Below are positions 45,472 to 49,811 of a stretch of 53,448 nucleotides of DNA, in pieces; the stretch's first letter is position 1; every line of letters begins with the position of its first letter. Source of the stretch: Methanobacteriota archaeon (GTDB lineage Archaea > Thermoplasmatota > Poseidoniia > Poseidoniales > Thalassarchaeaceae); the NCBI GenBank assembly GCA_004195615.1, contig PSPW01000014.1:1-53448 (forward strand), written 5' to 3'. Under the pieces are notes generated by a model. The model did no database searches and was not told the origin of the DNA. It saw only the letters and a list, made by a program, of their open reading frames with translations. The position numbers and the translations under genes are program-made.

Positions 45472-47316
45472 TCACACAATTCCGCGATTTCTTGCGTCTT
45501 CGGCACGTGCGTCTTTCTTTCCTGCCTCTACGTCGACCCAATTCATCATCAATGCACCAATCAGAATCAGTACTGCTACGCTGAGCACCCCCACCCTGCT
45601 ATCGAATGCAAGAGTCATCGTAGCATAGAGGAAAGGCCCGATCAATGCAGCCACCTTTCCGAAGAATCCGAAGAATCCGAAGAACTCTGCACTCCTAGTC
45701 TCGGGGACCATTTGTCCGAAGAGGCTCCTCGCAAGCCCCTGGGAGCCACCAAGTACCATTCCCATTCCGCATCCAAGGAGAAGGAATTGTAGACCAACAT
45801 CTAGACCAAGCTTTGCCCAGACATTATCCCTTACCCACGTCGTATATCCGTCCAGTGGACCATCTCCTAGATTAGTAGGGTGGTCTATTCCCACCTTTGT
45901 TATCCCATCTAGGCTTCCACCGTAGGCACTGACGCTGAACCTAGTCTCATCCATTGACCCAATTAGGTCTTCAATCATGTCAGACTCGAATCCAGGCACA
46001 GCGAAGTAAAATGGATCGTCTGTTGAATTGCCATATACCCAATCATAAGTCCCGGTCCTATCATCCAACTCAACTGGCAATACCTCTGCATATTGGGAAG
46101 CCCAAGACTGCTCATCGAATTCGCTCGCTGCATAGTTTAGCTTCTGTGCAATCGCATGCGTATCGTAATTGATGTGAACCTCGTACGCTTGAGAATCCTC
46201 ATTCCAGTCATACATTATCTCATGATCATCATGAGAATCGAAAACTAGAGGGGCGAAGGAGACTGCTGCGAAGCAAATGAAGACCCACCCCGCCAATGCG
46301 ACGGATAGGGCTTTCTTGGTCCCAATTCCCTCCTTAATCGTGAATCCTAACCAACGGTACCTGAGGCCAGCACGGCCACCGTTGGATAAGATGGTGAAAA
46401 ACAATGCACTTGGCCATGCTACGAACTGTACTGCCAGGATTGTAATCATCAATTGTGTAGCTGTGAGGCCTAGGACGACTGGGCCGAAGACGCCCCCTAG
46501 TGCGGTTACTGTGTTGATTCCGTCTATGAAGAAGAAATATGCAAGCATATAAATGAACAAAGTTCGGAACTTGTTGGTTTCGCTCAGGGTCTTCTTAATC
46601 TCAGAAAGAGCCAGTCGAGTTGAGTCCATAATTCCCATTGCGTCCATCTCATCCTGGATCGGTGGTTCGGGAACCCACTTGAATGTCAGTAGTGCGAATC
46701 CATACCACCAGACACCTGCAGAAGCGATGCAGAACGGCACCACCCAATCACCCGAAAGTGAGAGTATCATTCCGAAGTGGATTACGAGCAACAGACCCCC
46801 GCCAAGATAGCCGAATGCGAATGCCCTGTTGGAGATGTCATCCATCTCATCATCGGTCCCCATGTGCGGGAGAAGTGCGTTGTAGAACACCCCCGCGCCA
46901 TTCAGGCCGACGTTTGCAACAACAAACATGACTAGAATCCACAACCACTCATAGCCATCGACCAGCAGTGCAAAACCGATGAGGATAGTTCCTCCTGCTC
47001 CAACGTAGGTCAATATCCTGAGCCACCACATCTTGATGGCACGACGATCAGCAATCACACCCAAAGAAGGACTAACAAGAGCCACCATCAATGCGGCACC
47101 GGATACTGAATAAGCCCAAATCGCATCTGAAGTCATCAACTTTCCGAATACGGATGTGGTTAGCCCGTTCGCTTCCAGGAACAAGTATGCGTACCAGACT
47201 GGAAGTATTGCTGTGGTAACGCTAGTCTCGAAGGCTGACTTCCCCCAATCGTAGAATACGTATCCTCTCACTGCTTGTGGGTCTGATGCTCGGTCTATCT
47301 CTACGGTCTCTGACAT
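45472..47316 (-). CDS. MFS transporter (UMF1/Atg22-like) with large soluble insertion
   Basis: The 614-residue membrane protein matches the Atg22-like/UMF1 branch of the major facilitator superfamily: YVFYDWGKSAFETSVTTAILPVWY at the start, VSPSLGVIADRRAIKMWWL after helix 3, and the final FFGFFGKVAALIGPFLYA. Typical family members have about 420-480 residues. Here a hydrophilic insert of about 150 residues lies between helices 8 and 9, with DDHEIMYDWNEDSQAYEVHINYDTH. It would face outward. Substrate is unknown (amino-acid export is known for Atg22). It is convergent with hmgA, 4 bases apart. ATG 47316 is preferred over the open frame to 47481. Confidence 0.85.
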   Translation of the reverse strand: MSETVEIDRASDPQAVRGYVFYDWGKSAFETSVTTAILPVWYAYLFLEANGLTTSVFGKLMTSDAIWAYSVSGAALMVALVSPSLGVIADRRAIKMWWLRILTYVGAGGTILIGFALLVDGYEWLWILVMFVVANVGLNGAGVFYNALLPHMGTDDEMDDISNRAFAFGYLGGGLLLVIHFGMILSLSGDWVVPFCIASAGVWWYGFALLTFKWVPEPPIQDEMDAMGIMDSTRLALSEIKKTLSETNKFRTLFIYMLAYFFFIDGINTVTALGGVFGPVVLGLTATQLMITILAVQFVAWPSALFFTILSNGGRAGLRYRWLGFTIKEGIGTKKALSVALAGWVFICFAAVSFAPLVFDSHDDHEIMYDWNEDSQAYEVHINYDTHAIAQKLNYAASEFDEQSWASQYAEVLPVELDDRTGTYDWVYGNSTDDPFYFAVPGFESDMIEDLIGSMDETRFSVSAYGGSLDGITKVGIDHPTNLGDGPLDGYTTWVRDNVWAKLGLDVGLQFLLLGCGMGMVLGGSQGLARSLFGQMVPETRSAEFFGFFGFFGKVAALIGPFLYATMTLAFDSRVGVLSVAVLILIGALMMNWVDVEAGKKDARAEDARNRGIV

Positions 47317-47455: not shown

Positions 47456-48565
47456 ATGATGAGGCACTGGAAGCAACCCAAGGAGAATTCGATTGAAGCT
47501 CTCCGGCATGGAATTCTGTTTGGAGATGGGGTCGAATTTGACCTCAGGGTTGATGGGGACGGGGAGTTGGTGATCGTCCATGACGAGTTCGCTCCCGGGA
47601 AAGAGACGATCAGAGAGAGGTGCGTGGAAAAACTCCCAACTGACTACCTCAAATCAGCAGGCATCCCCACGCTGGACGATCTTCTTGCAAATCGGGAGTT
47701 CTCTGAAGCATGGCAATCAGGAGGCAAGACCGTTGACATCGAGTTCAAGCTCCCTCATCCCTCGACAAAAATAGGGACAATGGAGTACCTGAGTTCGATT
47801 ATGGGGAAATTAGAAGAATCACTGGAGCCTCTTGACCTTCCAGATAGGTCTGCAGTCGTGTCTTGCTTCTCCCCCAAGATAGGAGAGGCATCGAAGACTT
47901 TCGATTTCAGCATCCCGGTGATTCGACTAATGCCCCATATCAGAGCCTGGGGCCGGTTCTGGAGGCTGAAGAGGGTGGTTGCCATTCCTCATTTCGCTAG
48001 GACCACGGTAAAGGGAATCACCAGGAGTCTGCGTAAAGAGGGCATGGAATCAATCGGGATGACCCGGGATTATCTTATAGGATGGCCGCGATACATGCAC
48101 CCGGGCCTCCCCGTTGGCCTTCATGGAGAGGGATTGCAACGCTTCTTCGAGGCTCGGCGAGGCATGGGGGCTTTCGTATGGCCGGCCCCATTGAAGCACG
48201 AGGATGCATTGGTGAAAGCAGGAGTTTCCTTGGTCTCGGACAACATGAACCCAACTGTGTTCGAGAAACCAGATGGAACTCCGAGATGGCCCAGACCTGC
48301 CAGTCAGCCTCTCGATGAAGAATGGTACGAGAAAATCCGCAAGGCTAGTTCATCAGAGAGAGGGGAAATAATGAATGAGGCAGCTTCTTCCTTACCTATG
48401 TGGAATGAGATTGACCATGAGAGGAAGAGCAGGATCATACGAGATCAGGCCACAAGGATGCTCTGGCCGGGCAGTACTGAGAAATGGGTTAGGCTGGCAG
48501 ACGATGGATTGCCGTGGGGAAGTCCGAGGATTATCGGGCACAGAGGTGCTGGAACCACACAGTGA
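47456..48565 (+). CDS. Glycerophosphodiester phosphodiesterase-like protein, apparently circularly permuted
   Basis: The 369-residue protein begins MMRHWKQPKENSIEALRHGI and continues FGDGVEFDLRVDGDGELVIVHDEF. It shows the PENT, E-x-D and HD metal and catalytic sites of the GDPD TIM barrel, which cuts glycerophosphodiesters to glycerol-3-phosphate and an alcohol. The first motif, normally HRGAxxxxPENT at the N-terminus, is missing there. At the C-terminus instead is PRIIGHRGAGTTQ before the stop. Joined end to end, HRGAGTTQ-PKENS has exactly the usual spacing. A GGAAGGA site directly precedes the ATG. The C-terminal strand would complete the barrel. An activity on archaeal lipid headgroups is possible, not shown. 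Confidence 0.75.
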   Translation: MMRHWKQPKENSIEALRHGILFGDGVEFDLRVDGDGELVIVHDEFAPGKETIRERCVEKLPTDYLKSAGIPTLDDLLANREFSEAWQSGGKTVDIEFKLPHPSTKIGTMEYLSSIMGKLEESLEPLDLPDRSAVVSCFSPKIGEASKTFDFSIPVIRLMPHIRAWGRFWRLKRVVAIPHFARTTVKGITRSLRKEGMESIGMTRDYLIGWPRYMHPGLPVGLHGEGLQRFFEARRGMGAFVWPAPLKHEDALVKAGVSLVSDNMNPTVFEKPDGTPRWPRPASQPLDEEWYEKIRKASSSERGEIMNEAASSLPMWNEIDHERKSRIIRDQATRMLWPGSTEKWVRLADDGLPWGSPRIIGHRGAGTTQ

Positions 48566-48569
48566 ATGA

Positions 48570-49739
48570 TTACCCCAGTCTCCGATGAGGTTGTTCCTTG
48601 GCGATGTACTTCGGACGGTATATGGGTACTCCTCGGCCATCACGAGCATTTCTCTCATCTAGAATTTGGGCGCAAATTCCTGCCACCCGAGCCCAACCGA
48701 AGAACGTGGTGTAGTAGTGTGGCTTCCGGAATCCAATCGCATGTAATAGGCTTCCACTGGCCAAATCCACATTCGGGTATGGATTCGTGATCTTCGGATG
48801 CTCCTTCAGGATTGGTGGGACTACCTCTCTGAGAGTCTTCGTCACCTTGTAGTACTCGTCATCTGGGCAGACCTCGGAGCCGAGTTCGATCAGAAGTCGG
48901 GCTCTAGGGTCCTCTGCCCTAAGCACCCCGTGTCCGAAGCCATATATCGGCCTCCTCGCAGCAAGCTCTGACCGGACAAACTTCTCAATTTCATCTGGAT
49001 CTGAGGTACCAATCCTCTGGACGAACTCCAGACAAGCCTGATTTGCCCTGCCATGGAGTGGCCCGGAGAGTGCATTCATTGCGCTTGCAAGAGATGCATA
49101 CACAGAGGCCTTTCCAGACGCAACAGCCTTGCCAGAGAATGTGGAAAGGTTCCCTCCACCGTGATCCATATGGAGAATGAAGAAGAATCGGAGAACCCTA
49201 TTCATTATCTCGGCTTCCTCGTTATCTACTCCTAACATGTGAACAAAGTTCTCGACTAGCCCCAATTCGGTGTTCCTAGGACGTAGCTTCTCGGGATGGC
49301 CGCCACGAAGAAGGAAAATTCTGGCCATCAACTCGGGCATTCTGGCAATGAGATTCATCGAGTCGACTCTGGCGTCACCGGTGGTCTCGGCTGAGCCCAT
49401 CGCCATGATCCCTATAGAAAGCCAATCCATCGGGTGGCCACTGCCGGGAGTAAGGTGCTCTAGTACTCTCAATGCTCCAGTAGGGATTTCCTCGCCTCGA
49501 TGTGCCAATTCCTTTCGAAATGCTGCTGACTGTTTGGAATCTGGGAGTTTCTTGTGCATTAGCAAGTAGATGACGTCCTCCTCCTCCAGGTTTGCTAGAT
49601 CGCCAACGGGATATCCAACGTAATGTACGCCTTCAATCGGGTCTACGTAGGAGGTCTTGCAGGTTCCTACCGGGATTCCCCTCAGTCCCGAATCCAAGTG
49701 CCCTTCTGAAATAGAGAATATTGTTTCTTCATCGCCCAT
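48570..49739 (-). CDS. gltA: Citrate synthase (mitochondrial-like type)
   Basis: The 389-residue protein catalyses acetyl-CoA plus oxaloacetate to citrate. Motifs follow the eukaryotic mitochondrial type, not the usual archaeal/bacterial one: HMDHGGGNLS, SGPLHGRANQACLEF (catalytic His), YGFGHGVLRAEDPRARLL (oxaloacetate His; mitochondrial GYGHAVLRKTDPR), NPYPNVDLASGSLL (catalytic Asp; mitochondrial YPNVDAHSGVLL) and YYTTFFGWARVAGICAQIL. ATG 49739 is used; GTG 49769 is the alternative. It is convergent with the phosphodiesterase gene, 4 bases apart, and just downstream of the Kbl-like gene's end. Confidence 0.93.
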   Translation of the reverse strand: MGDEETIFSISEGHLDSGLRGIPVGTCKTSYVDPIEGVHYVGYPVGDLANLEEEDVIYLLMHKKLPDSKQSAAFRKELAHRGEEIPTGALRVLEHLTPGSGHPMDWLSIGIMAMGSAETTGDARVDSMNLIARMPELMARIFLLRGGHPEKLRPRNTELGLVENFVHMLGVDNEEAEIMNRVLRFFFILHMDHGGGNLSTFSGKAVASGKASVYASLASAMNALSGPLHGRANQACLEFVQRIGTSDPDEIEKFVRSELAARRPIYGFGHGVLRAEDPRARLLIELGSEVCPDDEYYKVTKTLREVVPPILKEHPKITNPYPNVDLASGSLLHAIGFRKPHYYTTFFGWARVAGICAQILDERNARDGRGVPIYRPKYIAKEQPHRRLG

Positions 49740-49811
49740 ATGGTTCCCAGCATAGAGGGTAACTGCCACTCTGTGATAATCCCTCCGACAAATGCCTTTC
49801 AGAATTGCCAG

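Follow-up and report, generated by a model that had tools for sequence, protein, structure and literature searches.

Sequence evidence for a natural circular permutation of a glycerophosphodiesterase TIM barrel in the archaeal order Poseidoniales

Glycerophosphodiesterases of the GDPD/GlpQ/UgpQ family (PF03009; 2pz0, 3qvq, 1vd6, 8ghh) share with the protein family described here the HR motif, ExD, the HD insert, ExK, a tryptophan and the beta8 aspartate, but in our family the beta1 strand with HR comes last in the chain, not first. For one member with a solved structure, the Staphylococcus aureus lysophosphatidylglycerol phospholipase D LpgD, His51 is described as acting with the metal to activate the attacking hydroxyl, His93 of the GDPD insert as serving as general acid and then as base, and three acidic residues are proposed as metal holders (PMC10404611). 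LpgD resembles our family in having two catalytic histidines and a metal, and differs in its predicted N-terminal membrane helix (PMC10404611); its motif order we assumed from its family to be the normal one. Circular permutation of TIM barrels has precedents elsewhere. In the GH70 glucansucrases, an enzyme TIM barrel was permuted naturally and family-wide with its catalytic motifs kept; these are glycoside hydrolases whose barrel starts at alpha3, whereas the cut in our family would lie in the beta1-alpha1 catalytic loop (PMC11046441). Transaldolase and class I aldolase are likewise TIM barrels related by circular permutation, but there the shift is of two units, whereas here a single strand appears to have moved, with the chemistry probably kept (PMC2213659).

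We analysed a stretch of 53,448 nucleotides (the window; assembly GCA_004195615.1, contig PSPW01000014.1) and focused on the gene at 47456–48565. Its features and its two neighbours are listed below, where fractions refer to 55 complete aligned family members (46 clusters at 90% identity).

45472–47316, minus strand: divergent neighbour, Atg22-like MFS transporter (PF11700, 1.1e-50)
47456–48565, plus strand: putative circularly permuted GDPD gene, 369 aa plus stop (ORF; PF03009 match; orthologues order-wide)
47468–47491, plus strand: new N-terminus WKQPKENS, the start of alpha1 (canonical PENT) with no beta1 ahead (W5 51/55, E10 54/55, N11 55/55)
47525–47548, plus strand: beta2 with E27 and D29 (DGVEFDLR), predicted metal ligands (both 55/55)
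47579–47584, plus strand: H42-D43 of the GDPD insert, predicted second catalytic histidine (H42 55/55, D43 52/55)
47738–47749, plus strand: beta3 with E96 and K98 (IEFK; both 55/55)
48176–48244, plus strand: beta7-beta8 region (V-W-P ... V-S-D), former C-terminal end of the barrel (W242 and D262 55/55; aligns to the canonical GDPD end)
48245–48520, plus strand: linker from old C-terminus to old N-terminus, mostly helical in low-confidence models
48524–48562, plus strand: relocated beta1 and catalytic loop PRIIGHRGAG with tail TTQ (R358, G361, H362, R363, G364 and G366 55/55)
48570–49769, minus strand: convergent neighbour, citrate synthase, which marks the orthologous locus (PF00285, 9.5e-90)

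The first-pass annotation had described a GDPD that starts at the ENS motif and has HRGA as the last motif before the stop, and the ORF and its PF03009 match bore this out. The protein of window ORF 47456–48565 (plus strand) starts MMRHWKQPKENS..., ends ...SPRIIGHRGAGTTQ-stop and closes with PRIIGHRGAGTTQ-stop, its GHRGAG lying three codons short of the stop. Residues 9–151 aligned to positions 9–159 of the 244 in the Pfam GDPD model, with a score of 33.2 bits that is above the curated cut-off of 23.6. The model's first eight positions had no counterpart at the N-terminus of the protein, and its last third was not covered. All NCBIfam GDPD matches to the window protein were sub-threshold; a sub-cut-off hit to TIGR03446 (E 0.098) fell in the linker and was taken as chance.

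The C-terminal HRGA, which the first-pass annotation proposed to look for in relatives, recurred as GHRGxG plus a short tail at the end of 57 of the 58 members with a readable 3' end. That number comprises the 55 complete aligned members together with L013 (broken by an in-frame stop, with GHRGAGKTHSS at the end of the second piece) and L064 (N-terminus beyond the contig, end with GHRGSGKTS), against L008. Also excluded from the 55, besides L013, L064 and L008 (tail deleted), were L019 (a duplicate of the window, which L020 represents), L021 and L022 (duplicates of L008 and L012), L011 and L058 (contig ends), and L065 and L066 (canonical enzymes). Three further sequences outside the counts (L134, L136, L138) had the same ending. 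L008, from the same record as G061, had lost its HRG tail through a local deletion of roughly 100 nt immediately ahead of the end; this sole readable member without the tail represents either a real loss or an assembly collapse.

Within the 55 members, R358, G361, H362, R363, G364 and G366 were invariant and 5–15 residues followed GHRG. This conservation of the tail is far beyond chance. The codons beneath it varied across members, with all six arginine, four glycine and two histidine codons in use; because the residues were fixed while their codons were not, we concluded that the tail is selected at the protein level. No HRG preceded the ENS/ENT motif in the stop-to-stop frames read for members. 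When all three forward frames were read up to 600 nt upstream, an HRG occurred in 7 of 55 members, and none of these was in a GDPD-like context as judged by eye.

We then compared the order of the barrel elements with that of standard enzymes. The family profile (built from 55 sequences, of which hhalign used 46) was aligned to a template profile made from 41 canonical GDPDs in the phylum. In its native order the profile matched in two blocks: columns 6–273 against template 16–222 (score 149.6), and columns 364–375 against template 3–14 (score 32.7, P 9e-4), the second being weak by itself at 12 columns and an hhalign probability of only 22.9%. With the 20-residue tail rotated to the front, a single collinear alignment spanned template 3–222 with a score of 171.9; a control profile with shuffled tails scored 150.6. 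Sequence by sequence, tail rotation raised the canonical-GDPD score in 55/55 cases (13.8–19.1 bits), and shuffled tails changed it by a mean of −0.9 bits (17/55 above native, largest +6.3). We also placed each of 343 20-mers from the window protein in front of its core, and C-terminal ones took the first five places (best 55.1 bits, median 36.6, SD 2.2). Pfam scores responded in the same way while remaining modest even when rotated: 33.2 native, 43.8 rotated and 33.3 with a shuffled tail for the window protein; 49.5, 58.9 and 49.4 for L036; and 32.6 native and 44.9 rotated for L033. The GDPD motif order HR, ExD, HD, ExK is broken in the native chain, with HR last, and rotation restores it. The earlier proposal of a circular permutation therefore stood, as the two-block native alignment became one after rotation and the shuffled control stayed flat. 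Judged from these alignments, the family is a permuted derivative of GDPD and not a standard member.

A scan of species genomes returned 17 relatives that were 57–90% identical to the window protein, in records labelled Marine Group II, Poseidoniales, Thalassarchaeaceae, Thalassarchaeum or Euryarchaeota. Among 194 genomes of the phylum, 47 had matches, including 45 of the 48 from the window's order, Poseidoniales; the remaining two (L065, L066), from outside the order, were weak (E about 8e-4) and turned out to be canonical GDPDs. When 145 genomes of the order were searched with the profile, 140 gave a match, covering 21 of 21 genera, and 138 gave a strong one (best E 2.7e-168 to 1.3e-73). The two weak matches among the 140 were in G161 and G273; that in G273 fell on a separate canonical GDPD, and G161 also holds a canonical GDPD. 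The HRG occupies model positions 371–373, as set by the window protein's own match, and in 136 of the 138 genomes the match extended past it to position 377 or later. The two that fell short were G133, at a contig end, and G061, with the tail deletion. Seven genomes had no permuted gene: four of these also lacked a citrate synthase match, and in three the citrate synthase was cut at a contig edge on the gene's side. The seven missing genes fit assembly gaps, presumably so for the four. The rearranged form is fixed in the window's order. Relatives in viral contigs numbered zero among 58 and 90 pattern matches. A full-length GDPD in normal order was present in only one of the 48 order genomes searched (G161), and the permuted form seems to be the full-length GDPD typical of the order.

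The genomic setting was conserved as well. Of 33 loci compared, 31 had citrate synthase next to the permuted gene and 28 had the Atg22-like transporter beside it. The transporter may weakly hint at coupled diester uptake and cleavage. By eye, the two halves of the transporter at 45472–47316 (minus strand) are separated by some 110 residues that are acidic and apparently soluble.

In a midpoint-rooted tree of 71 sequences and 223 columns, the 22 permuted representatives formed one group (local support 0.98), and the permuted family is a divergent branch. Monophyly, a shared locus and a shared linker together point to one event in an ancestor shared by the order's two families. Lineage f3, of the same class, had normal GDPD order in 5/5 genomes, and outside the order the Pfam model matched from position 1 in 39 of the 40 genomes with a match. 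Matches to permuted genes began at model positions 7–10, with position 2 in one (G133). Taken together, the alignments and the tree make it very probable that a GDPD with a TIM barrel was permuted once in the ancestor of the order and has apparently been inherited vertically since. The route may plausibly have been tandem duplication followed by trimming; none of the members read was an intermediate carrying HRG at each end. A glutamine found at both ends of the window protein had been offered as a mark of such duplication, and this point was not upheld. Relatives at 57–90% identity have H at the C-terminal Q position, and the wider family has H, D, S, P, T and others there, with Q also in L056 and L059. 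Because the C-terminal Q is not shared by relatives, the repeat is no duplication scar and would be chance.

Several other GDPD-like genes came to light in these searches. One candidate for a permuted gene outside the order, G096 (PF03009 match 65–240 only), was rejected as a GDPD remnant of 161 aa with no HRG at its end. This shortened canonical GDPD (L133) adjoins an apparent insertion element of two genes, which we take to be an IS200/IS605 TnpA/TnpB transposase-like pair. The window's own genome holds, on contig C31, a second, short GDPD-like protein in normal order (L018:1270–1845, minus strand). Similar proteins of about 190–200 aa (L109–L113, L115, L116, L139) bring its occurrence to nine genomes of the window's family; they carry the motifs GHRLGASGT..ENT, ExD, HDD and VEIK and seem to end before the last barrel strands, possibly as a shortened barrel. 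In genus g8, L088 (G161) and L135 (G273) are full-length canonical GDPDs in normal order with a hydrophobic N-terminal stretch, and are probably exported; the permuted gene is present in another g8 genome, G219.

A further difference from the GDPD/GlpQ/UgpQ enzymes is the stretch of 61–104 residues that separates the beta8 aspartate from GHRG in the 55 members. This linker has conserved positions (R-W, P-L, W-x-E). The linker of the window protein had no Pfam match, and a known domain was rejected in view of a best PDB sequence match of only E 0.4; a PF12918 hit in the L033 linker (E 0.15–0.16) was below cut-off and taken as chance. In a TIM barrel, beta8 and beta1 are neighbours. The chain would open in the beta1-alpha1 loop, run from alpha1 and beta2 through to beta8, return via the linker and end on beta1, with the catalytic His-Arg near the free C-terminus. 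Beta1 would slot between beta8 and beta2 and close the barrel in cis, and the beta1-alpha1 loop, on the catalytic face, should hold both new termini. The best profile matches in the PDB were GDPDs. AlphaFold2 was run with two shallow alignments of 15 sequences each, A1 (window first) and A4 (L014 first), and gave mean pLDDT values of 49.2 and 57.7, with only the first 120–150 residues reasonable. In both low-confidence models the last 19–20 residues had a pLDDT of about 25 and formed no strand there, and Foldseek ranked GDPDs first for both (3no3; 2pz0) at TM-scores under 0.5.

The GDPD hallmarks ExD, HD insert, ExK and HR were all present in 55/55 members, with HR C-terminal, and N11, E27, D29, H42, E96, K98, W242, D262, H362 and R363 were invariant. 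By alignment, the canonical catalytic residue set is complete. Roles were assigned from the alignment and general family knowledge: by position H362 should correspond to LpgD His51 and H42 to LpgD His93, and E27, D29 and E96 should be the metal ligands. In the closed barrel, H362 and R363 would rejoin E27, D29 and E96 at the metal, K98 and H42, and cleavage of a glycerophosphodiester would follow the metal-assisted, two-histidine route that is usual for these enzymes. In 45 of 55 members a methionine lay no more than 25 residues from the ENS/T motif, which leaves little space for a signal peptide; we infer a cytoplasmic enzyme that would act in glycerophosphodiester recycling.

Other explanations of the C-terminal HRG differ in how well they account for these data. 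A normal gene broken up by a frameshift or an assembly error, a possibility raised by the first-pass annotation, might seem natural in a draft genome of 50 contigs, and one relative (L013) is indeed interrupted by an in-frame stop. The arrangement, however, is conserved throughout the order: the same end closes 57 of 58 readable members from many separate records, the same locus recurs in 31/33 cases and the strong match in 138/145 genomes. This reading is refuted, its probability being negligible. It could also be argued that the C-terminal GHRGxG is non-catalytic, for example a phosphate-binding P-loop that resembles HRG. The Walker A pattern is GxxxxGK[ST], and GHRGxGK[ST] fits it in 31 of the 55 members. 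Yet the lysine is present in only 36/55 and 24/55 do not fit, whereas the invariant part is the GDPD set G-H-R-G-x-G, and the barrel would otherwise be left without its HR motif. We rejected a P-loop NTPase reading of GHRGSGKT because GxxxxGK[ST] is not conserved (31/55), and a non-catalytic tail of any such kind seems very improbable.

Two further readings accept the same permutation and differ over its consequences. The C-terminal strand might complete a partner chain, giving a domain-swapped dimer with a shared active site. The long linker (61–104 residues) would permit this, the two chain ends should share an active-site loop, and the sequence holds nothing that separates cis from trans. 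Against it, beta8 and beta1 are adjacent in the barrel and closure in cis needs no reach, and we consider the dimer unlikely. The protein might alternatively be permuted but catalytically dead, and bind a ligand or protein instead. The PF03009 match that stops short of the last third of the model and the divergence of the family in the tree would agree with such a relative; however, H362, R363, E27, D29, H42, E96 and K98 are invariant in 55/55 members, which is unusual for a dead enzyme, and loss of activity appears quite improbable. The data support a circular permutation of the GDPD barrel that arose naturally and once, apparently with the cut inside the beta1-alpha1 catalytic loop.

The first-pass annotation knew of no described natural permuted GDPD, and our search of the open-access literature likewise found no description of one. 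The same literature yielded nothing that paired Marine Group II with glycerophosphodiester, and the main text of two genome papers on Marine Group II/Poseidoniales contained neither 'glycerophosph' nor 'phosphodiesterase'. Natural permutation of a TIM barrel is known; what is apparently new is a GDPD in a stable topology of this kind, with the cut within the catalytic loop. In nature, to our knowledge, circular permutations that displace a catalytic strand, pass to an entire order and stem from one ancestor are uncommon.

As a tentative extension, which we regard as possible but doubtful, the permutation fixed in the ancestor of this marine order may have had functional consequences. The added linker subdomain could act as a lid over, or a channel for, a new substrate, for example ether-lipid head groups, and with His-Arg placed about 5–16 residues from the free C-terminus the active site might be complete only once the last residues are made and docked. 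Permuted GDPDs also expose a blind spot in annotation, since the Pfam match begins past the HR motif and a pipeline that relies on motifs could mark the gene as incomplete. The permuted family of the Poseidoniales would offer a natural test of how far the order of a TIM barrel can change while its chemistry is kept.
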